Below are positions 1-32,640 of a stretch of 41,198 bases of DNA, in pieces. The notes beneath the pieces were generated by a model. The model was not told the origin of the DNA, searched no databases, and saw nothing but the letters and a program-made list of their open reading frames with translations. The DNA lies in the IMG/VR virus record IMGVR_UViG_3300033145_001026, positions 1 to 41,198 of that record; one strand, 5' to 3'. The DNA is from a virus. The translations under genes were made by a program, and so were the position numbers. How positions within the stretch are numbered: the stretch's first letter is position 1; each line of letters starts with the position of its first letter.

Positions 1-114
1 CAATTACCTGTTTTGGTTCAGAAGATGCTTTTTATATTGCGGGAGTGGTATTCCGATTGAGTAATCACTACCGGTATCAAAATAACAGGATAGTAGTTTA
101 TAGAAAATGGCTTA
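1..114. repeat. Terminal direct repeat, left copy (assembly overlap of a circular genome)
   Basis: Bases 1-114 are identical to bases 41085-41198. The same reading frame continues through both copies, so the repeat marks where a circular or circularly permuted genome was cut open. The unique circle is 41,084 bp. A real 114-bp terminal repeat on a linear virion is possible but less likely, because it would lie in the middle of a tail gene. Confidence 0.95.
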
Positions 115-2219
115 ATAATCCGTGGGTAAAAATAATTGACTTTTTTTGTGAGGAGAACTATGTTTATGGTCTGGGCGCAAAATACAAAGACGGCTATATT
201 TATCTTGCTTATATGACTGGTTATTACGATGGTTGGAATTATATATGGAGGCGGGCGCATATTAGAAAATGTAATGATAGTAACGGTAATTTAATTTCCC
301 ATAAAGAAAGTTATCTTATGTCCGGTAATGCAAAGCCATTTTATTATCCGATACATTTTGATATTGATGACGACGATTTTTTTCACTGGTTGTATATAAC
401 AGAAGAAGAAGGAGCATATTCCTGTTATAATATGAAAATACATTTTGTCAGCGGGGCTATAAGTCAAAAAATGTTTGCTGAAGCATCTTTGCCGATAGCA
501 GTATCACTTTTTTCTGATAGACCTTCGCCGAAGACAATACAAATAATTGTTAAAAGGTGGGGAACTCAATGGCAGATTTGGCGTTATGTAGATAGTTCTT
601 GGACATTGTATTCATCTGAAAATATCTCTGGTAGTTTTAATCCAAGCGAATGGGACTGGAGTATAATTCACAGTCAGGATGAAGATAGTGGGTCTATTGT
701 TGCTTATTCGGGATACAAAAATTTATATTGGTGGTCAACCGAAGATACGGAAACTAACGGGCATTTTGAATTGAATCCCGAAGATAGCGCAGAATGGGCT
801 ATCGCAGGAATAGCATTTGGCAATCCTTATGATACACATATTTATACAGAAAAAGATATTCTTGTTTTATTCTTAAAAAAAACGAGGGGTTCTTTTTCTC
901 ATCTTGTTAGAGATATTATAACTTTTACAGGTCAAATGGATACAACGGAATGGACGGTAGGAAAGAGCATTGCCTTGAATACAAATACCGCTGTTGGGAC
1001 AAGGTGCGGAAATTCTATTCGTAAAGATGCTTTTTTAGGGTGGACTGATTTTTTATTTGGGAAAATGATTGACAGCAATTTCTATTACTGTCCGAGGAAT
1101 TTTGCTCCGACAGATGTGACCTCGCCGACAAAAGACCTCAACACGGATACTTTTCATTCGGGGATTCTAAATATAGATTGTTACCTTTTTGATAATCTGA
1201 TTATTAAAACATATACAAGAACATCCGATAATGGAATAGATTGGGACGGCTGGGAGTTAATCAATGACGACGGGACTATCAATTCAACAGCAAAAAGATA
1301 TTTTCAATGGAAGGTTGTTTTTGAAAGTTCCGGCTTGGTTTACGGTGATATTGCATTGGCAAGTGCATATTTTTTCTGGGCAACGGGAATCGGGACTGCA
1401 AGATTTAAGAAAATTGATTGGAATTTTTCTTCGGCGAATATAGAGGAAATTCCTATATCTTTTTCAAATGAAGATAAGGGCGAGAAAATAAAATTCTCAA
1501 AAGTGGAAATAAAGGCAAACCCCTTTATATTGAATGTGAGCACTAAAATCTGGGACGGGGATATTGACTGGACTGCGGAAACAGGGAAAAGTTATAATTA
1601 TAATGTTGTCTTTGAAAACCCTGTTGAAGTGGACGCTGCTTACAAATTGAAAATCAACGGACATTATTATCCCGAAGGAGAAAGCACTTACGGCGGGATA
1701 ACAGTAATTTTTACACGACATCCTATCAGCCCGCAGGTTTTAATCACCGGCGTAAGCGATACGAATATCACAGAATATTTTATAGAGGGAAAAGAGTGGA
1801 CGCAAACATCCGGTAGGATATATTCGGTAGGGGAAGGGATTGAAACTTTACAGATTGAAAATAAATATTTGTCGGATTCCTTTTTGTCGCAGGATACCGC
1901 TAATAAGATTTACAGGGTATTATCAAAAATAATAGTGGGAGTTCGCAGGGAAATGACTTTACCTTATTGCCCGACGATGGATTTGGATAATGTCATAAAA
2001 ATAGAGGACGATGAATTGGATATTACAAGATTTTATCAGGTGCTTGAAATTTCTCACGATATAAAGGAAAAGAAAACAAAACCGAAATGTATTGAATTGG
2101 ATTTGTCAATATATTATAACCCTCTCTACTGGGAGGAAAGAGTTGCAGGTGTGCCAGTCAAATGGGGAACAACTGACGGCGGGACACCGTATTACTGGGG
2201 GGGTGCGAGATATGGTTAA
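1..2219 (+). CDS. Tail hub / tail-associated protein, C-terminal part (gene starts at 39812)
   Basis: This is the 3' portion of a gene that begins at 39812 and crosses the circle join. The joined protein is 1163 residues, and the GTG at 45 corresponds to internal Val440, so it is not a real start. The fragment covers residues 440-1163. It is rich in Trp, Tyr and Asp, fits an extended beta-structured tail-tip protein, and ends in a Trp/Gly-rich tail with PYYWGG. Around 1900-2100 the stretch ending LDLSIYYNP looks like the closing strand region of a baseplate hub. It follows the tape measure (37051) and the 39225 protein, the usual place of the Tal/hub protein that contacts the host and starts DNA entry. 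I recognise no lytic domain in this part. Role by position: high confidence; fold details: inference. Confidence 0.85.
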   Translation, partial: ITCFGSEDAFYIAGVVFRLSNHYRYQNNRIVVYRKWLNNPWVKIIDFFCEENYVYGLGAKYKDGYIYLAYMTGYYDGWNYIWRRAHIRKCNDSNGNLISHKESYLMSGNAKPFYYPIHFDIDDDDFFHWLYITEEEGAYSCYNMKIHFVSGAISQKMFAEASLPIAVSLFSDRPSPKTIQIIVKRWGTQWQIWRYVDSSWTLYSSENISGSFNPSEWDWSIIHSQDEDSGSIVAYSGYKNLYWWSTEDTETNGHFELNPEDSAEWAIAGIAFGNPYDTHIYTEKDILVLFLKKTRGSFSHLVRDIITFTGQMDTTEWTVGKSIALNTNTAVGTRCGNSIRKDAFLGWTDFLFGKMIDSNFYYCPRNFAPTDVTSPTKDLNTDTFHSGILNIDCYLFDNLIIKTYTRTSDNGIDWDGWELINDDGTINSTAKRYFQWKVVFESSGLVYGDIALASAYFFWATGIGTARFKKIDWNFSSANIEEIPISFSNEDKGEKIKFSKVEIKANPFILNVSTKIWDGDIDWTAETGKSYNYNVVFENPVEVDAAYKLKINGHYYPEGESTYGGITVIFTRHPISPQVLITGVSDTNITEYFIEGKEWTQTSGRIYSVGEGIETLQIENKYLSDSFLSQDTANKIYRVLSKIIVGVRREMTLPYCPTMDLDNVIKIEDDELDITRFYQVLEISHDIKEKKTKPKCIELDLSIYYNPLYWEERVAGVPVKWGTTDGGTPYYWGGARYG

Positions 2220-2230
2220 AAGGGGGAGCA

Positions 2231-2488
2231 ATGGAAATACCGAGTGATGATAGAATAGAAAATAAAAACCCGCCGAAAGACCCTGACGATAAAAAAGAAT
2301 TGAATGCAGTTCGGATGATGGCGATTCTTGATAAAATTGTGAACGGTAGTTACGACGGTTTCCGGCTTCCGAATTGGACAACAGCGAATAGACCTTCTCC
2401 GGCGGAATTAGGAGCAATAGGAATAAATAAGGATTCGGGGCATATAGAAGTGTATGACGGGCACAGTTGGCAGCCGTTAAATACGTAA
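2231..2488 (+). CDS. Small tail-fibre-associated protein
   Basis: An 85-residue acidic protein starting 11 bases after the tail hub stop behind a GGGGGAG ribosome binding site. The C-terminal half, RPSPAELGAIGINKDSG then HIEVYDGHSWQPL, resembles the short beta module often found in phage fibre proteins, where a proline-rich lead is followed by a strand pair ending in a Trp near the C terminus. The N-terminal 30 residues are charged and probably disordered or helical. The position between hub and fibre suggests a linker or fibre-attachment subunit. Family assignment is a guess from motif style. Confidence 0.6.
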   Translation: MEIPSDDRIENKNPPKDPDDKKELNAVRMMAILDKIVNGSYDGFRLPNWTTANRPSPAELGAIGINKDSGHIEVYDGHSWQPLNT

Positions 2489-2498
2489 GGGGGGGATT

Positions 2499-4232
2499 GT
2501 GAAAAGAAATATAATTTTAGGATTGTTTATAGCGGGGAGTTTATGGGCGGGAAAATTAGCAGAGGTTGAATACAGCACGATAACTTGGCAACAGGAAAAG
2601 TATATTTCAGGTTCGTATTCTTTTGGCGATTCTACAACGACAGCGAAATCAAATTACGGTGCTAAAATATCATCCACAGGTATAGAGGCAACGCTTATCT
2701 TACTTAACGGAAACAGCATAACAGACCTTTTTATTTCAACAGCAGGGGATACTATGAGCGGAACTTTACATATGGGGGAAAATATAATTGAAGATGCATA
2801 TTTAGAAGGTTCTTATTTAGTAGATACCTTATTCGCTGATGGGAATAAAATCGTTCAGCATAGCACTTCCCCGACTGCTAACGGTGATGTGTCAACAAAA
2901 GGATATTGTGATTATGCAATAAAAAGTTATGAAGGTTTCGTTTCAACTACGGGGGATACAATGAGCGGAAATTTGGTTGTCCCTAAAATAGATTTAATAT
3001 TAGGCGTTATAGAACAAAATGGGGATGAATTATTATTTACTGACGACATTGGAAATACATCTTTTGGATTTAATATTTCTACAACTGGCGAAGCCAATTC
3101 TTCATTAGGGTATTTGGCACTTGCTAATAACATAACAGGTCAATCAAATGTTGCAATAGGAATGCAAGCATTAGAAGATAATACAACAGGACACTATAAC
3201 ACGGCGATAGGTTGTTATTCTCTTATGAATAGTATTTATGGGAATTGTAAAGTTGCAATCGGATTTGGGGCATTAGAAAACAATACTACTGGTTCGGGGA
3301 ATATAGCAATAGGACATAATGCAGGATTTTATGAAACGGGTTCAGATAAACTTTATATTGAAAATTCAGATTCAAGTTCCCCTTTGATTTATGGCGATTT
3401 TGCTTCCAATTTTTTAAGGATAAATGGATATTTAGATATGGTTAATAATTATATTAAGAATGTCTCAACCTATCCGACAAATGTTGGTGATGTTTCAACG
3501 AAAGGATATTGTGATTATGTAGTTAAAGAGGCGACGAATGTAATATCGCAATTATATGCGGCATACAACGCAACGGCAACCTACGACGCTGACTTGAAAA
3601 AAGATACATTCACTTTTACAGGGCAGATTACATTTGCGGATAAGACGACATTTTCAAGTAATACTTTTACGACGGGATTTTCCTCTGCGGCAAAATTTTA
3701 CGGTGACATTTCAAATTGCACGGGACAGGCGGCGGCGGATAATCTTGGAAATCACACGGCGACTGAACAACTAAAAATGGGGAGTTATGATATTTTTACA
3801 TCGTCAGGAATTACGGGACTTGAAAAAATTGTATGGGCGGACGGCACGGTTCAGATTTCAAGTCCTCCGGCGGGCGGGAATGGTGTGGCAATTGAGTATA
3901 TCCAACTTCTCAGGGGTTATGGTGCGGCGGATATTTATAATAGTTCAGATACTCTTAAACCTTATGGGACTTGGTGGCAAGGGGCGGGAGTAAGCGGAGA
4001 TATTACGGGCTTTGATGTTTTTGTAGCGTCAACTACAACAGACGCTTTTACAGTTCGGATATGGATTGACGGTTCTAATTTTGAGGCATTTGCAATTTCG
4101 GCGGGTTCAACACATACGATTATATCAACGACGACAGCACTTTCACCGACGACAATAATCGGATGTGATTTTGAAGGGGTAAATGCCGCTGACCCTGCCG
4201 GTGGGGTTTCAATTATGGTAACGACGGAATGA
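2499..4232 (+). CDS. Tail-fibre-like surface protein with signal peptide and YadA-head-type repeats
   Basis: A 577-residue protein with GTG start behind a GGGGGG-type site. Residues 1-18 (MKRNIILGLFIAGSLWAG) form a typical Sec signal peptide: Lys/Arg, hydrophobic core, small residues. Two fibre modules carry GDTMSG (about residues 83 and 152), each followed by PT-x-x-GDVSTKGYCDY blocks, as in phage fibre repeats. Residues about 198-285 are tandem units of the form N-x-A-I-G-x-x-A-L-x-x-N-x-T-G, matching the left-handed beta-roll seen in YadA-like adhesin heads. The C-terminal 130 residues look like a beta-sandwich tip. It overlaps the next gene by 4 bases. A fibre needing export is unexpected, because phage fibres normally fold in the cytoplasm. 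It could be a virion fibre, or a protein placed on the infected host's surface. Confidence 0.8.
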   Translation: MKRNIILGLFIAGSLWAGKLAEVEYSTITWQQEKYISGSYSFGDSTTTAKSNYGAKISSTGIEATLILLNGNSITDLFISTAGDTMSGTLHMGENIIEDAYLEGSYLVDTLFADGNKIVQHSTSPTANGDVSTKGYCDYAIKSYEGFVSTTGDTMSGNLVVPKIDLILGVIEQNGDELLFTDDIGNTSFGFNISTTGEANSSLGYLALANNITGQSNVAIGMQALEDNTTGHYNTAIGCYSLMNSIYGNCKVAIGFGALENNTTGSGNIAIGHNAGFYETGSDKLYIENSDSSSPLIYGDFASNFLRINGYLDMVNNYIKNVSTYPTNVGDVSTKGYCDYVVKEATNVISQLYAAYNATATYDADLKKDTFTFTGQITFADKTTFSSNTFTTGFSSAAKFYGDISNCTGQAAADNLGNHTATEQLKMGSYDIFTSSGITGLEKIVWADGTVQISSPPAGGNGVAIEYIQLLRGYGAADIYNSSDTLKPYGTWWQGAGVSGDITGFDVFVASTTTDAFTVRIWIDGSNFEAFAISAGSTHTIISTTTALSPTTIIGCDFEGVNAADPAGGVSIMVTTE

Positions 4233-4954
4233 AAAAGATATTTATAATTTTATCCTTGTTTTTAGTAAGCAATATATTTGCGTGGTATAGAATAAAAGGG
4301 ACTCAAGGGGGCGCTGATAGTTCAACGGTGGGTAAATGGGATTTTAACGAAAGCACAGGTACAGTGGCTTATGATGTTTCGGGAAATGGTAATAACGGGG
4401 CGATAACAGGGGCGGTCTATTCAGTTGACGGTTTATGGGGGACTTGTTTGGATTTTGACAGAAGTGCGGTAGATTATGTTCTTTGTGATTATGACGCTTC
4501 TTTCCATTTAGCGAATACGGATTATACAATTGCATTGTGGTTGAAACGAGGAGATACAAGTGCTGACCAATATGATTTTGTTGATACAGTAGATGCGAGC
4601 GGAGGATATATTTTCGGTATGAATGAATCAAAATTAAGGTTTTGTGATGGTGGGTGGACATTTTCAAATGTTACAATATCAGACACCGATTGGCATTATA
4701 TTGGTGTTACTTGTATTAAAGACGATGATGTTTTGAAATTTTATGTTGATGGTTTATTAAAAGAATCGTTAGCGGGGGGTGGTTCAATAGTTGATGGAGG
4801 AAATACCTTAACAATCGCAGTAAGAAATTGGGGTGGTATTGATAGCAATACCGCTTTTGATGGGATATTGGAAGAAATTAAACTTGACAACAGAGCATTA
4901 TCAGCGGCGGAAATTATGGAAAAATATTTAGCACAATTGGAGACAATGAGATGA
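4229..4954 (+). CDS. Secreted LamG-like (concanavalin-type lectin fold) protein
   Basis: A 241-residue protein whose ATG overlaps the upstream stop (ATGA). Residues 1-18 (MKKIFIILSLFLVSNIFA) are a signal peptide. Residues about 30-230 match the laminin-G/pentraxin jelly-roll pattern: VGKWDFNESTG at the start, SGNGNNG, then FTIALWLK-like DYTIALWLKRG, WHYIGVTCIKDDD, LKFYVDG, and the closing FDGILEEIKLDNRALSAAEI. This fold usually binds carbohydrate or surface polymers. It sits between two other exported proteins and is probably translated with them. Expected job: glycan binding at the cell surface or on a fibre tip. The fold is well supported; the ligand is unknown. Confidence 0.82.
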   Translation: MKKIFIILSLFLVSNIFAWYRIKGTQGGADSSTVGKWDFNESTGTVAYDVSGNGNNGAITGAVYSVDGLWGTCLDFDRSAVDYVLCDYDASFHLANTDYTIALWLKRGDTSADQYDFVDTVDASGGYIFGMNESKLRFCDGGWTFSNVTISDTDWHYIGVTCIKDDDVLKFYVDGLLKESLAGGGSIVDGGNTLTIAVRNWGGIDSNTAFDGILEEIKLDNRALSAAEIMEKYLAQLETMR

Positions 4955-5664
4955 AAAAGATAGTTTTAATTTTAAGTTTTTGTGGGTTAAGTTTTGCCGA
5001 AACTTTTGTAGGTCAATATATTATACATACTACTTCATTCCCGCCAGTGGCATTAAATAATATGTTCCAGTATGCAGTAGAAAAATCGGTTGTATTTCCT
5101 CAGCCCGCTTCAATGGTAGAGTGGATTTCGGCGGTTAGTTCAGCGACGGCAAAGAGCGGATTAGTCCGAAAAACTTGGCGACACAGTGAGCCGGTAATTG
5201 ACGAAAGAACAGATGAAATTTTTGCAGAGTGCGATATAAGAGTTGAGGGATTTCATCCGATAGAGAATTTTATAAATCAAGGGAAAATTACAAAAATCGG
5301 ATACTATACTTTTGACCGGCACGGATATAATAGAGACCCTTTAAGCGCAGGGAATATTTACGAGGCGGCGGCACGGCGGAACGCTTGGCGGGATAAATGG
5401 AGATTTGAAGTGGAGGTAAGTTCGGTTAGTGTCGGCGATGAACTTATAATTGACGGCGATACTTATATTGTTGAACATACAACCCCTGCTGTTGACGGTA
5501 GCACGTCTTTAGTGCCAGGCACATCTTACTATTTTGACGGAAGCACTACTCCGATTGTTGTCGGGGAATATGACGAAGTAAAAGGCGGGTGGTTGACTGC
5601 GGTTACGGGATTTATTGTTGTTTTGATTTTGGGAGTAATCGCATTTTTACAAAAGAAAGATTGA
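4951..5664 (+). CDS. Exported membrane-anchored protein, unknown function
   Basis: A 237-residue protein, start overlapping the previous stop by 4 bases. Residues 1-16 (MKKIVLILSFCGLSFA) are a signal peptide. The last 27 residues are a single membrane span preceded by GGWL and followed by QKKD, giving a predicted N-out, C-in topology. The same GGWL-span-basic ending occurs in the protein at 6661. The middle region is mixed alpha/beta with no family I recognise. One Cys lies in the signal and one in the body (AECDIRVEG). It probably displays a domain on the outer face of the inner membrane. Exclusion of superinfecting phage is one hypothesis, with no direct evidence. Confidence 0.7.
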   Translation: MKKIVLILSFCGLSFAETFVGQYIIHTTSFPPVALNNMFQYAVEKSVVFPQPASMVEWISAVSSATAKSGLVRKTWRHSEPVIDERTDEIFAECDIRVEGFHPIENFINQGKITKIGYYTFDRHGYNRDPLSAGNIYEAAARRNAWRDKWRFEVEVSSVSVGDELIIDGDTYIVEHTTPAVDGSTSLVPGTSYYFDGSTTPIVVGEYDEVKGGWLTAVTGFIVVLILGVIAFLQKKD

Positions 5665-5666
5665 GG

Positions 5667-5695
5667 TTGAAATAATGGCATATTTTTGGTAAAAT
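5667..5695 (+). promoter_or_regulatory. Putative sigma70-type promoter before the 5712 gene
   Basis: TTGAAA at 5667-5672, 17 bases, then TAAAAT at 5690-5695. It lies in the only real gap (47 bases) of the 2231-7011 block, just before a gene start at 5712 with GAGGGGGAAAG upstream. Both boxes differ from consensus by one base. It may give separate expression of the jelly-roll protein and downstream membrane/lysis genes. Confidence 0.45.
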
Positions 5696-5711
5696 CAGAG
5701 GGGGAAAGAAG

Positions 5712-6659
5712 ATGAAAAAATTAAGATTATGTATGGGATTTTTGATGATGGCGGGAAGTTGTTTTGCGGCTGCTCCGGGAACGTGGTTTTTGAAACAGAT
5801 AACAGACGCAGGGACAGGAGATACTTATTACATTGCTCAAAGTTCTGACATCCTGTTAGGGAAACAGATTGATACAGAGACGGGTGATACTTATTATGTT
5901 GCTACGACAACGCAGGCGTGGGCTATAACAGCATACAACGCTGAAAATCTCGGTGGTTCGGCGGCGACAAACTATGTTCTATTATCAGGAGCAACAATTT
6001 ATGCAACGGTGGTAGCGTTAGATGCCGAAACTGCGGCACGGATTTTAGCGGATATTGCTTTGGGTATTTCTTCGGCGACAAACAGAACTGACATAGATAT
6101 TGCCTTGAGTTCAATCACGGTAAATACCGACGATATAACAGTTCTTAACGACGCAATGTCTGAATTTATTTCGGAGACAGATGAAGGAGTTACGGTATCA
6201 ACTCATTTAATTGTCAACGGAAGTTTATCAGTATCAAGTGGAACTTATATTTGTGCGTGGTCAACTTCCGCAGAGGTTCAAACAATAGATGCAGATGTGT
6301 ATGTTCCGATAGAGGGTATATATAATACAACTTTTGGTTCAAATTTCTCAAGGGATGGGAGCAGTGTAACATACATCGGAAACATATCAAATATGCCGAT
6401 AAGGGTTCATTTCACAATAACTGTTTTGAACGATTCTGCAAATGTTACGGTATTGCAAGTCAGACCTTATATAAATGGCGTTGCAGGACCGCAAACCCCA
6501 GATAAAACGAGAATAACAGCGGCAAGTTATGGTAGATGTTCGTTGAATTGTATCGGTAAGTTGAATTACGGCGATATTATACAAATCAGATATTGCACTG
6601 ATGATGGGGATGATTTAACTCCAGAAAAATCAAATTTGGTTATGCACGGAGTTTATTAA
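5712..6659 (+). CDS. Secreted fibre-like protein with C-terminal jelly-roll (C1q/TNF-like) domain
   Basis: A 315-residue protein with signal peptide MKKLRLCMGFLMMAGSCFAA. The mature N-terminus holds two near repeats, FLKQITDAGTGDTYYIA and LLGKQIDTETGDTYYVATT. A middle stretch (about 80-165) rich in Ala, Thr, Ile and Asp with regular hydrophobic spacing could form a trimeric stalk. The last 135 residues have the strand pattern of a trimeric jelly-roll head, as in C1q/TNF-like receptor-binding tips, ending with a conserved-looking VMHGVY. The layout is stalk plus receptor-binding head, as in fibres, yet the protein carries an export signal. It is one base from the next gene. Fold: moderate confidence; function: inference. 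Confidence 0.68.
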   Translation: MKKLRLCMGFLMMAGSCFAAAPGTWFLKQITDAGTGDTYYIAQSSDILLGKQIDTETGDTYYVATTTQAWAITAYNAENLGGSAATNYVLLSGATIYATVVALDAETAARILADIALGISSATNRTDIDIALSSITVNTDDITVLNDAMSEFISETDEGVTVSTHLIVNGSLSVSSGTYICAWSTSAEVQTIDADVYVPIEGIYNTTFGSNFSRDGSSVTYIGNISNMPIRVHFTITVLNDSANVTVLQVRPYINGVAGPQTPDKTRITAASYGRCSLNCIGKLNYGDIIQIRYCTDDGDDLTPEKSNLVMHGVY

Positions 6660-6660
6660 T

Positions 6661-7011
6661 ATGAAAAAAATATTAATAATTATTTTGCTGTGGATGGTTG
6701 CTGGATATATTTGGAAAGCAAAAGCAATAATGCTGAAAAAAACCCGCAGGTCAACAGCCAGAATTATTGCAGAAGAAATTGCACGCCGGAAAATGGAACA
6801 ACTGATAACCGGAAATGACATTGAAATTGCGGATGTGATTGTAACGACTAAAACAGAATTATCAGCGAGAAACGTGGTTATATCAACGAGTGGGACTGTA
6901 TATGAAATAAAAGAGAAAGACCCCGCAACAGGGGGCTGGCTTGTCGGCGTTGCCGGAATTATCGCAATTCTAATCAGCGGAATAATCTATTTATTCAGGA
7001 GGAAACAATGA
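6661..7011 (+). CDS. Small exported protein with C-terminal membrane anchor
   Basis: A 116-residue protein with an N-terminal hydrophobic signal or anchor (MKKILIIILLWMVAGYIW), a basic, helical body, and a C-terminal span framed by GGWL and RRKQ. The C-terminal anchor lines up with that of the 4951 protein at most positions (GGWL-x-x-V-x-G-x-I...LI-x-G-x-I), which points to duplication or a shared anchoring need. It starts one base after the previous stop and overlaps the next gene by 4 bases, bridging the surface block and the lysis block. No named family recognised. Confidence 0.68.
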   Translation: MKKILIIILLWMVAGYIWKAKAIMLKKTRRSTARIIAEEIARRKMEQLITGNDIEIADVIVTTKTELSARNVVISTSGTVYEIKEKDPATGGWLVGVAGIIAILISGIIYLFRRKQ

Positions 7012-7265
7012 AAAGAATATTAAACGGTTACTGGGGATTTATTGCTGTCATTATAACTTTGTTACTCGCAGGAGGCAGCGTTCTTGTAAAAGTTGGAAGT
7101 AAGAAAACACAAGTCAATAGAAACACATCTGACATTATAGAAATAAAATCAGAACAAAAAGATTTTCGCAAAGAAATAAATAAGAAATTTGAAGTAGTTG
7201 CGGGGGATTTGGGTTTGATAAAAGGAGCTCTCGGAATTAAAAAACAAGCGAGAGCAAGAAGATAA
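7008..7265 (+). CDS. Small membrane protein with coiled-coil tail (lysis-block; spanin- or accessory-holin-like)
   Basis: An 85-residue protein beginning inside the previous stop (ATGA). A span at about residues 8-27 (YWGFIAVIITLLLAGGSVLV) is followed by a polar helical segment with heptad-like spacing (NTSDIIEIKSEQKDFRKEI) and a basic end. This single-span plus coiled-coil design is seen in inner-membrane spanins and in holin-associated proteins. It stands immediately before two more membrane proteins and the endolysin, supporting a lysis role. No lipoprotein partner was found, so a spanin call remains tentative. Confidence 0.6.
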   Translation: MKRILNGYWGFIAVIITLLLAGGSVLVKVGSKKTQVNRNTSDIIEIKSEQKDFRKEINKKFEVVAGDLGLIKGALGIKKQARARR

Positions 7266-7827: not shown

Positions 7828-8484
7828 GTGAAAGATTTTTTCAAGGGTATCCTTTACTGGATAACTTCGTATTTTTTCCCGTTTATGCGTCGGCAGATTA
7901 AGAGAAAAAAGCCCTGCACGCTGGACATCAGTTGTGATGTTAAAAAGATGGAGAAGTTTCTGGAAGTCCTGCTCCCCTTTTGTGATTTTGAAAACTTCAA
8001 CCGCTGGGCTATCTTCACTCACGCTTTTCACGAAACAGGCGGATTTAAAAAGGCAATCGGGAATAATTATTTCGGGATTAAAAAGCCGAAAAAATGGAAT
8101 GGAAAAGTAACAAGACTTTATACTCACGAGAATGTAAAGGCATTAAGTGGCGAAACTAAAGAACAGGCTCAAGAGCGCATTCAAAAGCGATGGGGATGTC
8201 CTATTGAGATTGTTAGTTTTAAAGATGGGTGGTGGAAAATAAGGATAACAGCAGAATTTGCCGACTGGGAAACATTGCCGGAGGCGCTGATATGGTATGG
8301 AAGTTTAATTAAACGGCTCTATTCTATATCATTTCTGAACAGGGAAAATCCCGAACATTATTTTATCGGATTGACGGCAGGAAAATATCTGTATGCATCA
8401 GACCCTCGTTATGTTGAGAAGTTAAAAAATATGTATGGCAAACTTCGGGCGAGTGAATACATTAAAAATCTGGTAGAAAAGTAA
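7828..8484 (+). CDS. Endolysin, glucosaminidase-type peptidoglycan hydrolase
   Basis: A 218-residue protein with GTG start 4 bases after the holin-like gene. It matches the bacterial glucosaminidase (FlgJ/LytG-type) fold: IFTHAFHETGGF (likely catalytic Glu69), then NNYFGIKKP, and the late YASDPRYVEKLKNMYG signature. It cleaves glycan strands of the cell wall between amino sugars. Residues 1-20 are hydrophobic and aromatic without a clear cleavage site, so it may associate with the membrane. No separate wall-binding domain is visible, as is usual for phages of Gram-negative hosts. It is the last gene of the rightward lysis block. Confidence 0.87.
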   Translation: MKDFFKGILYWITSYFFPFMRRQIKRKKPCTLDISCDVKKMEKFLEVLLPFCDFENFNRWAIFTHAFHETGGFKKAIGNNYFGIKKPKKWNGKVTRLYTHENVKALSGETKEQAQERIQKRWGCPIEIVSFKDGWWKIRITAEFADWETLPEALIWYGSLIKRLYSISFLNRENPEHYFIGLTAGKYLYASDPRYVEKLKNMYGKLRASEYIKNLVEK

Positions 8485-19203: not shown

Positions 19204-19524
19204 ATGCAGAAGCCAATTTATAAGGAAAATAGTGTTAAATATAAACTATTGAAGATATTTGAGGAAAATGATTTTTTAACCTACGCCGACATTCGGGATT
19301 ATTTTGACCGCAACGGCAAAGGAATAAATAGTATAGACAGGTTTAAGCGTTTCCTTCAAGACGACGGATTTGTTATAATAAAGAGGCATAGGAACGAGAA
19401 CTGCTACGAATATAAATTGACGGGCTGGAAACCGCCGGAAGAAGAACCTTACACACCGGCAGGGAAGAAACCGCAGGCGGGAAGTGGGGATTTGTTTAAT
19501 GTAAACAGGTATTCTTATGATTGA
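19204..19524 (+). CDS. Winged-helix-like small protein
   Basis: A 106-residue protein. Residues 10-70 read as a winged helix: KYKLLKIFEENDFLTYADIR, DRFKRFLQDDGFVIIKRHR and a final strand YEYKLTGW. A Pro-rich tail follows (PPEEEPYTPAGKKPQ). Might regulate DNA-bound processes, or partner the methyltransferase it overlaps by 8 bases. DNA binding not proven. Confidence 0.55.
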   Translation: MQKPIYKENSVKYKLLKIFEENDFLTYADIRDYFDRNGKGINSIDRFKRFLQDDGFVIIKRHRNENCYEYKLTGWKPPEEEPYTPAGKKPQAGSGDLFNVNRYSYD

Positions 19525-20290
19525 AAGGCAAGAAAAATTAACGAAAATAGAATTATTTAATGACCATTTTCAAAATTATAAATCTTACCAGATACCTAAA
19601 GCGCAGTTGATTATTGCGGATATACCGTATAATATGGGCAATTATGCTTATGCGAGTAATCCGTCGTGGTATGTTGGTGGCGACAATAAAAAAGGTGAAT
19701 CAGATAAAGCAAACAAATCATTTTTTGATACAGATGGCTATTTCAATATTGCGGAATATATGCATTTTTGTTCTAAAATGTTAAAAAAAGAACCGAAACA
19801 AAAAGGATTATCTCCGGCTATGATTGTATTTTGTGCATTTGAGCAAATGCAAATGATTATAGATTATGGGAAAAAATATGAGTTTAACAATCATATGCCT
19901 TTATTTTTTATTAAAAACTATTCCGCCCAAGTTTTGAAAGCCAATATGAAAATACTGGGAGCGGTAGAACACGCTATAGTTTTATATCGTGATAAATTGC
20001 CGAAATTTAACAATGGCGGAAAAATGATTTTTAATTGGTTCAAATGGAAAAGAGACAATTCTGTTCCTAAAATACATCCAACACAAAAATCCATTCCAAT
20101 ATTGAAAAGATTAATAGAAATTTATACGGACGAGGGCGACGTTGTGATTGACCCCGTGGCTGGAAGTGGTGCGACATTGAGAGCCGCCGCTGAATTGAAT
20201 AGGAACGCATATGGATTTGAAATAAAAAAGAATTTTGTCAAAGATGCGAAGGAAAAAATGTTAGTAAATTTGCAGAGAAAATTATTTTAA
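19517..20290 (+). CDS. Orphan DNA methyltransferase (amino-methyltransferase, beta-type order)
   Basis: A 257-residue protein. Motif IV is DIPY at residues 35-38 (LIIADIPYNMG), a variant of D/N-P-P-Y. Motif I is near 212 as DPVAGSGATLRAAAELN, then GFEI. Motif IV before motif I is the beta-type order of N6-adenine or N4-cytosine methyltransferases. The replacement of the first Pro by Ile in DPPY is unusual but tolerated in some phage enzymes. No restriction nuclease is adjacent, so it probably shields phage DNA from host restriction or marks it for packaging. Confidence 0.86.
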   Translation: MIERQEKLTKIELFNDHFQNYKSYQIPKAQLIIADIPYNMGNYAYASNPSWYVGGDNKKGESDKANKSFFDTDGYFNIAEYMHFCSKMLKKEPKQKGLSPAMIVFCAFEQMQMIIDYGKKYEFNNHMPLFFIKNYSAQVLKANMKILGAVEHAIVLYRDKLPKFNNGGKMIFNWFKWKRDNSVPKIHPTQKSIPILKRLIEIYTDEGDVVIDPVAGSGATLRAAAELNRNAYGFEIKKNFVKDAKEKMLVNLQRKLF

Positions 20291-21355: not shown

Positions 21356-22555
21356 ATGTTGAAGGTTGTAGAAATTCCGATTTCAAAATTAAAATCAGCA
21401 AAATATAACCCCCGAAAATGGTCTGAAAAAGCAATATCTGATTTGCGAAATAGTATAAAAGAATTCGGGATGGTTGACCCGCTTATTGTTAATTCTGCAC
21501 CGAAACGAAAGAATATCATAATAGGTGGACATTTCAGAAACAAAATAGCAAAGGATTTAGGATATAAAACAGTTTCAGTGGTTTATATTAATATTCCTAA
21601 TATAGAAAAAGAAAGGAAACTCAATATCCGCTTGAATAAAAATCTTGGGGAATGGGACTTTGATTTGCTATCTGAATTTGACGAGGACTTATTAAAGGAT
21701 ATAGGTTTTGATAGTAAGGAACTTAATAATATATTTCAGTTAGAACCTAACGCAAAAGACGATATTGTGCCAGACCCGCCGAAAAAGGCAAAGTCAAAAC
21801 TCGGCGAGATATATCAACTTGGTAGACACAGGGTTATGTGTGGGGATTCTACGAAGAAAGAGGATGTGGAAAAATTGATGAACGGAAAGAAAGCAGATAT
21901 GGTTTTCACTGACCCGCCGTATGGTGTGGACTATGGTAAAAAGAATCGGTTTCTAAATTCCTTCCAGAAGGCTGGAAGGAATTTGAAAGACATTGCAAAT
22001 GATACGATTGGAAAAGATGAATTATTTACTATGCTTAATAAAACATTTACATTAGTAAATGAATACGGACAAGATTGGTGTAGTTATTATGTAACTGCGC
22101 CACAAGGCGGCGAACTCGGATTGATGATGATGATGATGATGATGAGCGGATTACCAACAAGGCACGTTTTAATATGGAATAAAAACCGTCAAAATTTCTC
22201 ACTTGGTAGATTAAATTATGAATATAAACACGAACCTATATTATTTTCTTGGAAGAAAACACATAAATTTTATGGGGGTGGACAATGTAAAAGTAGCGTA
22301 TGGGATATAGATAAAGAACTAAAATGCGATAAACATCCTACAATGAAACCTGTTGCTCTTATAGAAAATGCTATTCTTAATTCAAGTCAACGAGGTGAAA
22401 TTATAGGGGATTTCTTTTTAGGAAGTGGTAGCACACTTATTGCAGCAGAAAAAACAAACCGCATCTGCTACGGTATGGAGATAGACCCCATTTATGTAGA
22501 TGTGATAATAAAACGCTATCAGGATTATACAGGTAAAAAAGCAATTAAGTTATGA
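21356..22555 (+). CDS. ParB-domain DNA methyltransferase
   Basis: A 399-residue two-domain enzyme. N-terminal 1-95 is ParB-like (VVEIPISKLKSAKYNPRKW; IIGGHFRNKIAKDLGY). The C-terminal methyltransferase has motif IV DPPYGVDY near 186 and motif I GDFFLGSGSTLIAAE near 352, beta-type order, target N6-adenine or N4-cytosine. This fusion is common beside phage terminases. Residues 257-263 are seven consecutive Met coded by (ATG)7. Ends with an ATGA overlap with the small terminase candidate. The promoter places its ATG at the transcription start. No cognate nuclease is seen. Confidence 0.94.
   Translation: MLKVVEIPISKLKSAKYNPRKWSEKAISDLRNSIKEFGMVDPLIVNSAPKRKNIIIGGHFRNKIAKDLGYKTVSVVYINIPNIEKERKLNIRLNKNLGEWDFDLLSEFDEDLLKDIGFDSKELNNIFQLEPNAKDDIVPDPPKKAKSKLGEIYQLGRHRVMCGDSTKKEDVEKLMNGKKADMVFTDPPYGVDYGKKNRFLNSFQKAGRNLKDIANDTIGKDELFTMLNKTFTLVNEYGQDWCSYYVTAPQGGELGLMMMMMMMSGLPTRHVLIWNKNRQNFSLGRLNYEYKHEPILFSWKKTHKFYGGGQCKSSVWDIDKELKCDKHPTMKPVALIENAILNSSQRGEIIGDFFLGSGSTLIAAEKTNRICYGMEIDPIYVDVIIKRYQDYTGKKAIKL
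22124..22144 (+). repeat. (ATG)7 microsatellite within the methyltransferase gene
   Basis: Seven perfect ATG triplets in frame, making seven Met between the two catalytic motifs. Triplet changes would alter length but not frame. Such runs are prone to slippage. Confidence 0.95.
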
Positions 22556-24199: not shown

Positions 24200-25498
24200 A
24201 TGTTTAATAGTAAATATAAAATCCTCGTAAAACAAGTAGGCAAACTTCAATTATTTATTGATGGGCTTATCGGTGAAATTGAAATACTTAAAAAATCATA
24301 CAAAGGGAATCCTTATCAGACATACAAGGCAATGGTTGAAGAATTATCAAAGAAAGCGGAAGGGATAGCGGACTGGGGTAATCAATTAACGCAGAATATA
24401 ATCGCTATCAGGTCGGCTTTCATAATGGCAAGCGGAATAAAATTCAGTATGAAGGATAAAACAGCAACGAAAGAATTTAAGTTCGTCAAAGAACTTTTTG
24501 ATTTTAATGATTTGGATGAAGAAAACCCGATTGAGTTCTGTAAAGAGGCAGAGATTGAAGGGAAATTTTTATGTAAATTATTTCCGAATTCAAAAGAAAA
24601 ACAGATAGAAATTAGGCACATAAGTTATACGCAGACAGACTATAAAATTTCAACAGAGGAAGATGATTACAAACATTATATAGGGGTTAAATATAAATAT
24701 AAAAAAGCAGATGGCAGTTTATCCACTGAACAAACGCTGGAAGAAAAGGAATTTATTTATAAAAGATTTGGCGGGAGATTAAGTAAGGTAAATGATACGC
24801 CGCCGAAACTCGGTGCAGCCCTGCGAAACATTGAGGACTTGGATAAATCATTGTGGGATTTGAGAAAAATAAATCATCTGTTTGCAAGCCCTACCCCGAC
24901 TTTTAAGTGTAAGGATAAAAATGAAGCAAATGATTTATATGACCGGCTTAAAAAGATAAATTGGAAAATAGGAAAACTTCTCGTATCAACGGCAGAATAT
25001 AAACTGGAAGGATATACGGGAACAGGGGTGGATGTTCTTCTGAAAGAAATAGAAGTTCAGGCAAAGATGATTTCAGGGACAACTGGAGTGCCAGTTCATT
25101 TTCTTGGATTACCTGATTTACTTTCTAACAGGGCGACTGCGGAAAATATGATGGAAATGCTTTATGCTTCAACGTCAAAAGAACGGAAAACTTGGATAGG
25201 CGCTTATGAGGAAATTATAGATAAAGCAATGTTAATGGCGAATATAAATTTTAAGCAAAATTATAAACCGGGAACTATCACGATTGAAATACCGTTTGTG
25301 ACGGCAGGGAAGATGAAAGAACTGGCGGAAGTATGGTTGCCACTTTATTCAGGTGGGGTAATATCATTACCGACGATGTTATCAAAAATTCCCGAAATTG
25401 ACCCGGAAGAAGAAATGAAAGCGAATGAATTAAGTGTAACAGAAAGAGGGATACAAGTAGAAGAAGAAAAAGAAGAGGAAGAAAGTGCCGAGACATAA
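24200..25498 (+). CDS. Portal protein
   Basis: A 432-residue protein directly after TerL. Wing and stem features of SPP1-like portals: ITYxxSxF-like NIIAIRSAFIMASGIKF, a middle beta domain with YKHYIGVKYKYKK, the clip/stem region MISGTTGVPVHFLGLPD then NRATAENMMEMLYAST. The C-terminus is very acidic (EEEKEEEESAET). Twelve copies form the vertex for packaging and tail joining. No ATG, GTG or TTG lies upstream in frame after the promoter, which fixes the start. The endonuclease start overlaps its 3' end by 14 bases. Confidence 0.93.
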   Translation: MFNSKYKILVKQVGKLQLFIDGLIGEIEILKKSYKGNPYQTYKAMVEELSKKAEGIADWGNQLTQNIIAIRSAFIMASGIKFSMKDKTATKEFKFVKELFDFNDLDEENPIEFCKEAEIEGKFLCKLFPNSKEKQIEIRHISYTQTDYKISTEEDDYKHYIGVKYKYKKADGSLSTEQTLEEKEFIYKRFGGRLSKVNDTPPKLGAALRNIEDLDKSLWDLRKINHLFASPTPTFKCKDKNEANDLYDRLKKINWKIGKLLVSTAEYKLEGYTGTGVDVLLKEIEVQAKMISGTTGVPVHFLGLPDLLSNRATAENMMEMLYASTSKERKTWIGAYEEIIDKAMLMANINFKQNYKPGTITIEIPFVTAGKMKELAEVWLPLYSGGVISLPTMLSKIPEIDPEEEMKANELSVTERGIQVEEEKEEEESAET

Positions 25499-26162
25499 AA
25501 ATAAAACAAGTTTTATAAAAGGAGACCCTCGGATTACAGGGAAGCAGCAGAGTAAAGAGCATATTGAAAAAAGAGCATTGCCATTGAGAAATAAAATAAA
25601 GGTTAAATGTGATTATTGTAATAAAAAAATAGAGATAGTTCCTTCGGTTCAGAAAAATTTGAAACATCATTTTTGCAATAGAAATTGTTATATTGACTGG
25701 TTTAGAAAAACAGGGTGGAAAGAAAGAAGTTATAATTTGACAAAAGAAGGGCGAGCAATTATATTAAAAGTTGTAGGTAATAACGGTAAGAAAATTTGGC
25801 GAAATAAAACACAACAAGAAAAACAAGAGTGGATAGAAAAAATGAGGCAATGCCAAAGAATTAGACCAACGAAACCTGAAAAGAAAATGATGGAAATAAT
25901 CAAAGAATATAATCTTCCATATAAGTATGTTGGTGATGGTTCTTTTTGGATAGGAAAAAATCCTTCTGTTAACCCTGATTTTATAAATGTAAATGGAGCA
26001 AAAAAAGTAATAGAAGTTTTTGGTGATTATTGGCATAGAAATGATAATGGGCGACGAGAAAAACAATTAAAAAATTATGGTTACAAATGTATAGTAATTT
26101 GGGAAAGTGAATTTAAGAAATTTAGTAAAAAAGAAATTATTAAAAGAATAATAGGAGGTTAA
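25485..26162 (+). CDS. Vsr-like (EDxHD-type) homing endonuclease
   Basis: A 225-residue protein. N-terminal 1-75 has a zinc knuckle (CDYCNKKI...FCNRNC) and NUMOD-like basic stretches; the C-terminal 140-225 is a Vsr-type nuclease: TKPEKKMMEIIKEYNLPYKY, NPSVNPDFI, KKVIEVFGDYWHRND, KNYGYKCIVIWESEF. The order E...PD...E-x-x-G-D-x-W-H matches the EDxHD family of homing endonucleases, as in I-Bth0305I. It is tucked between portal and protease genes, overlapping portal by 14 bases and carrying the next gene's ribosome site in its last codons. A lodged mobile element. Confidence 0.85.
   Translation: MPRHKNKTSFIKGDPRITGKQQSKEHIEKRALPLRNKIKVKCDYCNKKIEIVPSVQKNLKHHFCNRNCYIDWFRKTGWKERSYNLTKEGRAIILKVVGNNGKKIWRNKTQQEKQEWIEKMRQCQRIRPTKPEKKMMEIIKEYNLPYKYVGDGSFWIGKNPSVNPDFINVNGAKKVIEVFGDYWHRNDNGRREKQLKNYGYKCIVIWESEFKKFSKKEIIKRIIGG
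25737..25765 (+). promoter_or_regulatory. Possible promoter inside the endonuclease gene
   Basis: TTGACA 25737-25742, 17 bases, TATATT 25760-25765. It would transcribe the capsid protease, scaffold and capsid genes. In AT-rich coding DNA this may be chance. Confidence 0.3.
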
Positions 26163-29227: not shown

Positions 29228-29269
29228 GTGGAGAGGGGCAAGCGTTATGAGCGTTCTGCCCTTCTCCAC
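29228..29269 (+). other. Long hairpin after the capsid gene (mRNA processing or stability)
   Basis: 29228-29240 (GTGGAGAGGGGCA) pairs with 29257-29269 over 13 positions with one G-U and a 16-base loop; three more pairs (29225-29227 with 29272-29274) close it beyond a bulge. No U-run follows, so it is not a typical terminator. A hairpin here can protect or end the capsid messenger. It occupies what would be the GTG start of an extended cupin frame, arguing against that start. Confidence 0.7.
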
Positions 29270-29284
29270 GCAGGGAATACAATA

Positions 29285-29632
29285 ATGCCTATAGATAAGC
29301 AGGGAAAAATCTGGGGAGAGACAACAAAGATTTACAATAATGATGCGTTCTCGGTTCATTATCTTGATATAAAAAAGGGCGGATACTGCTCGGAACATAA
29401 ACATAAAAACAAGGTTAATCTTTTTTATATCATTTCAGGGATTTTAATTGTCTCTATTTTTAATAGCGGCATTGAAGACAAAACAGAATTACAGGCAGGC
29501 GGGGTAATGGAAGTTCCGTGTGGGGTTTTGCATAAATTTGAAGCGAAGTCAGATGTTCAGTGCATTGAAATCTATCAGGCATTTTTGGATGAGAATGATA
29601 TTGAAAGGAAAACGCAGGGCGGAATAAAATAA
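29285..29632 (+). CDS. Cupin-fold sugar or small-molecule enzyme
   Basis: A 115-residue protein from ATG 29285 (the open frame extends to a GTG at 29228 inside the hairpin). Single cupin: YCSEHKHKNKVNLFYIISG is the first motif (G-x-x-H-x-H type with His pair), VMEVPCGVLHKFEAKSD the second. Such domains act as sugar epimerases/isomerases or metal-bound oxygenases. As first gene of a sugar cassette, a role in nucleotide-sugar or glycan chemistry is likely. Exact reaction unknown. Confidence 0.7.
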   Translation: MPIDKQGKIWGETTKIYNNDAFSVHYLDIKKGGYCSEHKHKNKVNLFYIISGILIVSIFNSGIEDKTELQAGGVMEVPCGVLHKFEAKSDVQCIEIYQAFLDENDIERKTQGGIK

Positions 29633-31029
29633 TGGGTATGATAGATATGTCTGATTTGCTGGAGCAGGGCAGGGAGAAAGTAAAAAAAAGTAAATGTATA
29701 AATATGACAGATGTTGCGGCGAACTGGGCGGAATTAAGATTGAGGTCGGATATGATGAATAACAGGGTGGATATAATTACAAAAGATAGTCCGAATAATT
29801 TTGCGGATATTATCACTGATAATATATGGAAAGGGCAACGATGTTTTATTATCGGCGGCGGAAAAAGTTTGAAAGGTTTTGATTGGAGAATACTGAAAGG
29901 TGAATTGACAATCGGAGTGAATATGGCTTTTATGAAAATATCACCGTCAATTTTATTTTCAACGGATTCAAGATTTTATGAATGGATTATACAGGGGGCG
30001 CTGGGCGAAGATGTGCAGAGGAAATTTGCGGACTATCAGGGGTTTAAGGTATGGCTAAACTTTTTTAAGTATAAATACCCCGACGCTGTTTATCAAGTGG
30101 ATAGTGCAGGTGAAAAAATACTTACATCTTCTCTTAAAGATGGGATAGGACACGGCTCAAATTCCGGCTATGCGGCGTTGAATTTAGCAATATGTTTGGG
30201 AGCAAACCCTATTTATCTTCTGGGATTTGATATGCAAGGCGACGGCAATGGTAAACAAGTATGGTGGCACGACGGATACCCGTTAAATCAGGGTGAAAGT
30301 ATTTTTACGCATATGATTGAGAATTTTGAAAGGGCGTCTGTTGAAATAAAAGACAGAGGGTTCAGGGTAATAAATTTGAACGATAATAGTGCTTTGAGAT
30401 GTTTTGAATTTTTAGAGGCGAAGGGTATTGAAAAAATTACAAGACCGATAATTGTATCATTTTATACGGAAAATACCGGCTATGAAAAGGAAATAAAAAA
30501 TCTTGAGAGGTCAATTAAAAAATTCGGCTTTGAATATGATTTGCAGGGGATAAAATCAAAAGGAGATTGGCAAACAAATACTTATCATAAGGCAGTTTTT
30601 ATGCGAGAGATGCTGGATAAACACAAGGGGCGGGATATTGCGTGGCTTGATTCCGACGCTGTGATACAAAAATACCCCGATAGGTTTAATAATTTCAAGG
30701 CGGACATCGGAATACATATTATTGACTGGTCTAAATACAGGAACAGCACGGAAAAACAATACGGGAATGCGGTAATATACCTGAAAAATAATGAGCGAAC
30801 AAAGAACTTTCTGGATAAGTGGATTGAGAAAAATGATAATACAAAACACTGCGACTGCGGAGAAGAAGTAAATTTCGGAATAGTGTTAAAAGAAATGGTC
30901 GCAAAAGATGAAATTACGCTGGAAGAATTTGGCGCCTCTTATTCGCAGATTTTTGATTTGATGAAAGCGGCTGGCGAACCGACGATAGAACTTTTTCAGG
31001 CGAGCAGGAGATTAAAGAATGAAAATTGA
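29632..31029 (+). CDS. Two-domain glycosyltransferase (DUF115/MAF-like plus GT-A-like)
   Basis: A 465-residue fusion. Residues about 65-260: CFIIGGGKSLKGFDWRILKG, TIGVNMAF, FSTDSRFYEW, HGSNSGYAALNLAICLGA, IYLLGFDMQG. This is the Rossmann-type DUF115 pattern shared with flagellin glycosylating MAF proteins and sialyltransferase-like enzymes. Residues about 270-440 have a nucleotide-sugar transferase pattern with LDSDAV near 340 as the metal-binding D-x-D. It should transfer sugar onto a protein or glycan. Placed between capsid and connector genes, its target may be a virion protein. Confidence 0.78.
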   Translation: MGMIDMSDLLEQGREKVKKSKCINMTDVAANWAELRLRSDMMNNRVDIITKDSPNNFADIITDNIWKGQRCFIIGGGKSLKGFDWRILKGELTIGVNMAFMKISPSILFSTDSRFYEWIIQGALGEDVQRKFADYQGFKVWLNFFKYKYPDAVYQVDSAGEKILTSSLKDGIGHGSNSGYAALNLAICLGANPIYLLGFDMQGDGNGKQVWWHDGYPLNQGESIFTHMIENFERASVEIKDRGFRVINLNDNSALRCFEFLEAKGIEKITRPIIVSFYTENTGYEKEIKNLERSIKKFGFEYDLQGIKSKGDWQTNTYHKAVFMREMLDKHKGRDIAWLDSDAVIQKYPDRFNNFKADIGIHIIDWSKYRNSTEKQYGNAVIYLKNNERTKNFLDKWIEKNDNTKHCDCGEEVNFGIVLKEMVAKDEITLEEFGASYSQIFDLMKAAGEPTIELFQASRRLKNEN

Positions 31030-31642
31030 TATTGTGATAGCGACTTACAAAAGGGAAGAAAAATTAAAGAGATGCCTTTGGTCTATCTTGGATAATAGTT
31101 ATTTGAAAACTACTTTTTACAGGATTTTTATTGAATCTGATTATAATCGGCTGTTTGTTTTCGGCATCTGGAATAAATATATCAGGATTTCAACAGCAGA
31201 TATTATATTCTGGTTGAATGATGATATTAAACTTTTCCCTGATTGCATAGAAAAGGCGGTTGAATATATGGTGGATAATTTCCCTGATACCGACGGAATG
31301 ATTACATTAAATCAAAGTAATATGGAACAGGGGCGCAAGGGTGGCGTTGGATTGGTCGGAAGAAAGTTTGCGGATAGGTTTCCTGAAAGACGGTGCTTTT
31401 GCCCTGATTACAAGATTTTTCACGCAGACGCAGAACTTCAAACCTTTGCAGAAAGCATAAATAAATTCAAATACGGGGAAGATGCAAAAGTTACGCATTA
31501 TCATCCTGCACTTTTCAAAAATGAAATGGATGAAACGCATATAAATTCAAGGAAAGAAAATTCAAGTTCAGATTTACAGGTTTGGCGTGAAAGAAAAGCG
31601 GATGGTCTTCTGTGGGGCAGAGATTTAAGGAAATTAAGATGA
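31019..31642 (+). CDS. Glycosyltransferase family 2-like protein
   Basis: A 207-residue protein. MKIDIVIATYKREEKLKRCL is the GT2/GT-A opening. IIFWLNDDIKLFPDCIEK supplies the metal-binding Asp pair, and AELQTFAESINKF may hold the acceptor-side acid. Shorter than usual GT2 (about 250), with the middle reduced. Overlaps the previous gene by 11 bases and the next by 4. A soluble sugar transferase of the cassette. Confidence 0.8.
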   Translation: MKIDIVIATYKREEKLKRCLWSILDNSYLKTTFYRIFIESDYNRLFVFGIWNKYIRISTADIIFWLNDDIKLFPDCIEKAVEYMVDNFPDTDGMITLNQSNMEQGRKGGVGLVGRKFADRFPERRCFCPDYKIFHADAELQTFAESINKFKYGEDAKVTHYHPALFKNEMDETHINSRKENSSSDLQVWRERKADGLLWGRDLRKLR

Positions 31643-32640
31643 AAGTTTTTATAACAGGTATTGCGGGTTTTCTGGGTAGTCATCTGGCGGATGCTATGCT
31701 TGCTATGGGACACGAAGTAGAGGGATGCGATAATTTAACAGGGGGATATACAGAAAACGTCCCGAAAGGCGCAAGATGTTATTTTGCCGACTGCACGGAC
31801 TTGAAGGATATGCAAAAAATAATAAAAGATGTGGATGTGTTGTATCATTGTGCGGCGTATGTTTACGAGGGATTAAGTGTTTTCTCACCGAGCGTAGTTA
31901 ATAAATCTATTTATCAGGCGACTTCAACGGTATTATCCGCATTTATTCAGAACAAAGGTAAGCGTTTTATTTTCCTTTCGTCTATGGCGAGGTATGGCAC
32001 AAATGCAGTGCCTTTTACGGAGAGTATGAGACCCCGCCCGCAAGACCCTTACGCTATTTCAAAGGTGGCAAGCGAAAAACTAATTGAGGTTATGGCGATG
32101 GTTCACGGCTTTGAATATGTAATTGCAGTTCCGCATAATATTATCGGGCAGAGACAAAAATATGATGACCCTTTCAGGAATGTAGCGAGCATATTTATAA
32201 ATAGAATGTTACAGGGAAAACAGCCGATAATTTACGGGGATGGAGAACAGAAAAGATGTTTTGTCTTCGTGCAGGATTGTATAAATCCGTTAAAGAAAAT
32301 GGCAACTCAAAAAAATATAGTTGGCGAAATAATTAACGTAGGTTCGGATGAGCAGTTTGTAACGGTAAACGATTTGGCGGTATTGATAGCAGAATTATTG
32401 AATTTTGATTTATATCCTATTTATGTTCCAGCACGACAGCAGGAAGTAAAATACGCAACTTGTTCATCCGATAAAGCAAGGGAAATGCTCGGTTATGAAA
32501 CACAATATACTTTAAAGAATGGCATAAAAGAGATGATAGATTGGATTAAGGAAAGGGGCAGCAAGCCCTTTGATTATCATTTGGAAGTGGAAATTATAAA
32601 TGATAAAACGCCGGAAACGTGGAAGGCAAAAACGATATGA
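31639..32640 (+). CDS. NAD-dependent sugar epimerase/dehydratase (extended SDR)
   Basis: A 333-residue enzyme from ATG 31639 (ATGA overlap). TGIAGFLGSH (Gly7-13) is the NAD-binding loop. Catalytic Tyr138 and Lys142 are in DPYAISK, with Ser in FLSSMARYG. The later PHNIIGQRQKYDDP and GDGEQKRCFVFVQD match UDP-glucose epimerase/dehydratase relatives. It makes a nucleotide sugar for the neighbouring transferases. Substrate cannot be told. Confidence 0.9.
   Translation: MKVFITGIAGFLGSHLADAMLAMGHEVEGCDNLTGGYTENVPKGARCYFADCTDLKDMQKIIKDVDVLYHCAAYVYEGLSVFSPSVVNKSIYQATSTVLSAFIQNKGKRFIFLSSMARYGTNAVPFTESMRPRPQDPYAISKVASEKLIEVMAMVHGFEYVIAVPHNIIGQRQKYDDPFRNVASIFINRMLQGKQPIIYGDGEQKRCFVFVQDCINPLKKMATQKNIVGEIINVGSDEQFVTVNDLAVLIAELLNFDLYPIYVPARQQEVKYATCSSDKAREMLGYETQYTLKNGIKEMIDWIKERGSKPFDYHLEVEIINDKTPETWKAKTI

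Follow-up and report, generated by a model that had tools for sequence, protein, structure and literature searches.

Five consecutive genes for putatively exported fibre-, lectin- and anchor-like proteins in the tail-fibre position of a siphovirus genome

Background

Why should five neighbouring genes, in the place where fibre genes would be expected in a tailed phage, all begin with what looks like an export signal? The question is raised by the virus record IMGVR_UViG_3300033145_001026, the whole of which, 41,198 nucleotides, was analysed here (the window). Its first and last 114 bases are identical, and it is therefore most likely a complete genome, circular or terminally redundant, of about 41.1 kb. 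It has a G+C content of 38%, and no tRNA genes were found in the record. A terminase, a capsid-like gene, a minor head protein and a tape measure are all present, and by this gene content the phage is a long-tailed siphovirus. One relative, IMGVR_UViG_3300033150_000609, has a terminase that is 96% identical. The features needed for the argument are as follows.

45..2219, plus strand: large tail-tip protein, C-terminal part; the gene spans the record ends and lies directly upstream of the five-gene chain
2231..2488, plus strand: fibre-base-like protein, 85 aa; no signal; stand-alone, just before the putatively exported genes
2499..4232, plus strand: gene 1, 577 aa; signal, conserved N-terminal segment (about 58 aa), repeats, variable C-terminus
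2499..2549, plus strand: predicted signal peptide of gene 1, MKRNIILGLFIAGSLWA; DNA identical in the relative
4229..4954, plus strand: gene 2, 241 aa; signal and LamG/concanavalin-like lectin domain
4951..5664, plus strand: gene 3; signal, variable ectodomain, conserved small beta segment, C-terminal membrane helix and basic tail (GGWL...QKKD)
5712..6659, plus strand: gene 4, 315 aa; signal, conserved N-terminal region (about 135 aa), variable C-terminus ending in a TNF/C1q-like jelly-roll
6661..7011, plus strand: gene 5; N-terminal signal or anchor, ectodomain of about 65 aa, C-terminal membrane helix (GGWL...FRRKQ)
7008..7265, plus strand: next gene after the chain; N-terminal membrane helix and charged, coiled-coil-like tail; product probably lysis-associated
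7828..8484, plus strand: endolysin (glucosaminidase; Pfam PF01832, 2.7e-9), within the lysis region 3' of the chain

After the tail-tip protein the order is the 85-aa gene at 2231, the five genes of the chain, small membrane proteins and the glucosaminidase endolysin. The chain lies where tail-fibre genes would be expected, after the tail tip and before the lysis genes, and its tips are variable.

Five consecutive export signals

The initial annotation described five open reading frames, each starting with Lys or Arg, a hydrophobic core and a small-x-small site of the Sec type, and all five are as described. The predicted signals, with ^ marking the predicted cleavage site, are MKRNIILGLFIAGSLWA^GK in gene 1 (2499), MKKIFIILSLFLVSNIFA^WY in gene 2 (4229), MKKIVLILSFCGLSFA^ET in gene 3 (4951), MKKLRLCMGFLMMAGSCFA^AA in gene 4 (5712) and MKKILIIILLWMVAGYIWKAKA^IM in gene 5 (6661). 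Cleavage is likewise a prediction, and the N-terminal helix of gene 5 may be left uncleaved, that is, may serve as an anchor. The start of gene 4 also fits a lipoprotein box, with Cys17.

A plain signal rule (a positively charged start followed by a hydrophobic core, with small residues at -3 and -1), which is our own and crude and not of the SignalP class, picked the five genes and the gene at 7008 from the 61 non-overlapping genes of the window, a run of six. The sole other call in the window is false, as it falls on the N-terminus of the epimerase at 31612, an NAD-binding region. Among the 355 genes of six control phages the rule made 12 scattered calls, none of them on an annotated tail or fibre gene, and the longest run was two (lysis genes). 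The background of the rule is about 2% for composition-shuffled bodies and 3-26% for shuffled N-termini, which are hydrophobic to begin with. That all five products would be exported via the Sec pathway is well supported by these predictions.

Architecture of the five proteins

In gene 1, the GDTMSG fibre repeats (two copies) and the YadA-head-type repeats named in the initial annotation are both present, together with STKGYCDY motifs, and these repeats match virion fibres; the YadA-head-type repeats are clear by eye and by homology, though they match no Pfam model. The LamG fold that had been proposed for gene 2 is recovered by Pfam Laminin_G_3 (PF13385) at 2.3e-17, with 64 bits against a gathering score of 27.6. 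For gene 4, a structure model of moderate confidence (mean pLDDT 66) agrees with the earlier description of a jelly-roll tip in giving a TNF/C1q-like beta-sandwich, which Foldseek matches to BclA/ExsF folds at E about 1e-6 and to C1q/TNF folds at E about 1e-5, and which also matches many phage fibre tips.

Genes 3 and 5 are different. The view that all five proteins are fibre- or lectin-like holds for genes 1, 2 and 4; the products of 4951 and 6661, for which no fibre family match was found, consist of a signal, an ectodomain and a strong C-terminal membrane helix. Their ends, each a GGWL motif followed by a helix and basic residues, are homologous, with alignment scores of 79 in the window and 95 in the relative, and none of 2000 shuffles scored as well. 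The structure model of gene 3 is of very low confidence and too poor to use. We infer from hydrophobicity that genes 3 and 5 encode membrane proteins, presumably with the binding side out.

Stop-start overlaps had been reported at three of the four joints of the chain. Two of them stand (4229-4232 and 4951-4954): genes 2 and 3 each overlap the preceding gene by four bases, and these overlaps and the close spacing of genes 4 and 5 are alike in the relative. The other two joints are gapped, by 47 bases at 5664/5712 and by one base at 6659/6661, and the third overlap (7008-7011) joins gene 5 to the following gene, outside the chain. Strong ribosome-binding sites precede genes 1 and 4. We take the layout to be two modules with an anchor at the end of each: fibre, lectin and anchor in genes 1-3, and fibre and anchor in genes 4-5. 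The pairing of fibre with anchor is suggested by gene order, by the coupled starts and by the homology of the anchors.

The overall topology of genes 3 and 5, with a signal, a beta-rich ectodomain and a C-terminal helix, is shared with one-piece spanins, and the chain adjoins the cassette of membrane protein and endolysin genes. One could therefore imagine that the chain belongs to the lysis machinery, with genes 3 and 5 as spanin-like envelope disruptors and the others as wall- or glycan-binding helpers. A u-spanin combines a lipoprotein signal with a C-terminal helix, however, and genes 3 and 5 have only the second half of this combination, as a lipoprotein box is absent from both; moreover, no known lysis system makes use of fibre repeats, LamG domains or C1q-like tips. 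We regard a role in lysis as most improbable.

Replacement of tips in two related phages

The gene order recurs in a related phage: the relative keeps all five genes in order, at 5233, 7104, 7816, 8410 and 10001 on its stretch (L004). The chain is known from these two genomes only. When viral contigs were scanned for kin of genes 1, 3, 4 and 5 and of the tail protein, with short exact peptides that miss distant relatives, this one relative came up, and a 10.7-kb fragment was recovered by its terminase only. No prophages were found in a terminase scan of genomes, and genes 3, 4 and 5 had no match among 50,697 phage records.

DNA similarity between the two phages breaks exactly at the binding parts. 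Conserved are the end of the tail protein, the gene at 2231, gene 1 as far as codon 58, the last part of gene 3, the first part of gene 4 and gene 5 (79% identical), while the remainder of gene 1, the whole of gene 2, the front of gene 3 and most of the end of gene 4 have been replaced. The relative's gene 2 is a LamG protein too (Pfam Laminin_G_3, 8e-20, 72 bits), with 26% overall identity. In the conserved parts dN/dS is 0.14-0.36, which indicates purifying selection (terminase, 0.08). Tips differ between the relatives, with anchors and N-termini retained, as is the case for receptor-binding modules.

For genes 1 and 4, the two phages share the same signal down to the DNA, so that these signals are uninformative as a test of export. 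The starts of genes 2 and 3 are unrelated DNA in the two phages, and yet there is a signal in each: MKKIFIILSLFLVSNIFA in the window and MRIFLFLFFASLALA in the relative for gene 2, MKKIVLILSFCGLSFA and MIKYLFIFLFLPLPLLA for gene 3. We consider these unrelated starts, both apparently encoding signals, to be the best evidence for selection on export.

This has a bearing on the simplest explanation, that the proteins are ordinary virion fibres with hydrophobic N-termini that are not used for export. Their modules (repeats and tip in genes 1 and 4), the variability of the tips and the position of the genes are all as in virion fibres. It would be hard to account in this way for five consecutive signals, two of which have been swapped for unrelated sequences that are again signals, or for the second, C-terminal membrane helix of genes 3 and 5. 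Furthermore, homologous virion fibres begin with soluble attachment domains and lack a signal, and the proteins of the chain do not begin in this way. We therefore think it improbable that they are ordinary fibres.

Homologues in viruses and Bacteroidota

Signals are absent from the fibre and tail genes sampled in seven other viruses, most of which carry gene 1 repeats or relatives of gene 2 or of the tail protein. The gene 1 repeats are also present in 14 of 118 sampled Bacteroidota genomes, and there a signal was seen by eye at the start of 14 of 15 repeat proteins, one of which also has a C1q-like end. Since signals are near-universal in the Bacteroidota homologues and absent in the phage homologues, a signal combined with such repeats is, judging from these samples, the cellular form, and the phage chain appears to join the cellular form to a phage gene position.

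The host itself is probably not a member of the Bacteroidota. Shine-Dalgarno cores precede 52% of genes here and 4% in Bacteroidota stretches. The Q-rule (PMC10653852) leads one to expect Gln after the signal cleavage site in Bacteroidota, and none of the five chain proteins has Gln after its predicted site. A Bacteroidota host was rejected on these two grounds.

These observations are also the main argument for the suggestion that the genes are acquired cell-surface adhesins, cargo of cellular origin that alters how the infected cell adheres, for instance to particles or to cells nearby. Both the signals and the one Bacteroidota protein with repeats and a C1q-like end are in keeping with a gain of cellular adhesins, and this part of the original proposal is strengthened; its other part, that the host was the source, is not, given the Shine-Dalgarno usage. 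In addition, the genes sit inside the region of late structural genes and have the mosaic make-up of phage fibres, and no integrase was found among the larger genes of the record, so that a benefit to a long-lived lysogen is doubtful. Lysogenic conversion was rejected for the same reason. It is quite unlikely, in our opinion, that the chain is adhesion cargo of this kind.

The signal-less gene at 2231

The product of 2231 matches the N-terminal region of far longer fibre-like families (in PHROG, positions 27-80 of the 334 of phrog_1325), and its phage matches include near-N-terminal positions in longer fibres. It is conserved in the relative, with a dN/dS of 0.08 over 45 codons. A frameshift fusion with gene 1 is ruled out because the two are in different frames and the run of G between them lies behind the stop codon. 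This run, seven G at 2489-2495 (five in the relative), is part of the ribosome-binding site of gene 1 and is a possible site of length variation.

A small protein of this type could be the base of a fibre that is finished outside the cytoplasm. The 2231 product would sit on the tail tip, and the exported products of genes 1, 2 and 4, held by anchors 3 and 5, would join the tails at or after lysis. The genes occupy precisely the position of tail fibres, with the tail tip before them and the lysis genes behind, as in TP-84; the 2231 product is similar to the N-terminal part of longer fibres and ends where the shaft would come next; and variable tips are typical of receptor-binding proteins. On the other hand, folding outside the cell and capture by tails after lysis would be required, and we know of no tailed phage that completes its fibres outside the cytoplasm, nor did the open-licence papers searched yield one. 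The 2231-type motif is also short and widespread, and phage zth2-2 has only this short fibre-base motif in common. Assembly of virion adhesins outside the cytoplasm, which the initial annotation had offered as one hypothesis, gains slightly from the stand-alone, signal-less 2231, and we consider it unlikely. Rather unlikely, too, is the specific form of split fibres, in which a base of cytoplasmic origin remains on the tail tip, and the fibre and lectin chains, once exported, are anchored in the membrane and joined to tails outside the cytoplasm.

A proposed role in the envelope of the infected cell

We tentatively favour the explanation that the five genes encode phage-made, exported binding proteins that are displayed in the envelope of the infected cell, where they may mask receptors (probability roughly 0.4). 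Display on the infected cell fits best because two members of the chain are membrane anchors. A coat of binding modules had been among the first hypotheses, and it is this part that our analysis favours; the accompanying idea that the coat captures or blocks other phages is unsupported by any result.

In the proposed mechanism, all five chains would enter the Sec pathway, and genes 3 and 5 would sit in the membrane via their homologous C-terminal anchors, binding side outward. The repeat fibre of gene 1 and the LamG lectin of gene 2 would form one module with anchor 3, and the gene 4 fibre with its C1q/TNF-like tip a second module with anchor 5. Late synthesis of the set is probable from its place in the late tail-to-lysis region. 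Its most likely use would be to occupy receptor glycans on the cell and on its debris, which would spare progeny and rival phages from loss. Receptor masking, both against superinfection and against the loss of phages to fragments of lysed cells, is an established phage strategy (PMC9586334).

Against display, the genes are in a late position, whereas superinfection-exclusion proteins are usually made early (PMC9586334), and the chain stands where virion fibre genes would stand; besides the large tail protein, no further obvious candidate for a virion side fibre was found. Only two genomes carry the chain. If the host is diderm, passage beyond the outer membrane would need a further route, and none is visible here.

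Comparison with known systems

The closest functional model for display on the infected cell is Llp of phage T5, a phage-encoded, exported protein believed to work at the receptor of the infected cell; the chain is phage-encoded too, and its products carry signals that would take them to the envelope. Where Llp is a single small lipoprotein whose target is a receptor protein (PMC9586334), the chain comprises five late-region proteins with fibre and lectin modules and putative binding, of which gene 4, the only one to fit a lipoprotein box, is a fibre-like protein of 315 aa. Adhesins of the PblA/PblB type from streptococcal prophages likewise derive from phage tails and have their effect at the cell surface, and a pneumococcal PblB has a predicted signal peptide (PMC4508584). 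These are large tail proteins of temperate phages, however, and no exported chain or paired anchors have been described there.

The virion fibres of cyanophages and of Pelagibacter and Roseobacter phages have YadA-like repeats or C1q/TNF-like tips and a similar genome position, but those inspected have a soluble start and no signal peptide. Secreted YadA-repeat proteins of Bacteroidota have signal and repeats, and in one case the C1q-like end, but they are cellular genes of a phylum that is probably not that of the host. The adsorption protein pIII of filamentous phages combines a signal, binding domains and a C-terminal membrane anchor. Genes 3 and 5 are similar to it in layout, with signal, ectodomain and C-terminal anchor, but the phage here is tailed, having a terminase, head genes and a tape measure.

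In the open-licence papers examined, we found export signals of tailed phages on lysis proteins and one PblB only, and no earlier description of a chain of exported fibre-, lectin- and anchor-like proteins in the tail-fibre slot. The original remark that an unbroken chain of exported, fibre-derived proteins corresponds to no named system is supported by the conservation of chain and signals in the relative.

If the products are on the infected cell, the receptor-binding repertoire of the phage would double as an envelope coat, and receptor occupation by fibres and lectins would join the known exclusion proteins. If they reach virions, tailed phages would be assembled partly outside the cytoplasm. 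In both cases, signal-bearing fibre genes strung together after the tail tip and before the lysis genes make a simple sequence signature, for which phages of uncultured hosts can be screened.

Other regions of the genome

No known defence proteins were matched by PADLOC. A middle segment of the large tail-tip protein (41025-41198 and 1-1098) has no DNA similarity between the two phages, and its flanks are about 90% identical; it is a second variable region and perhaps the receptor-binding part of the virion. A block of sugar-related genes lies between the capsid-like and head-completion genes (29228-33188) and includes a cupin-like gene, a sialyltransferase/MptE-like gene, a GT2 glycosyltransferase, an NAD-dependent epimerase and a methyltransferase-like gene. 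The portion covered by a viral fragment, L006 (to 32300), is kept there with 83% DNA identity. There are two DNA methyltransferase genes (19517-20290 and 21356-22555), the second of which is fused to a ParB-like domain. An endonuclease-like gene (25485-26162) directly follows the putative portal gene and is missing at that place in the relative and in L006; it therefore looks like a mobile insertion.
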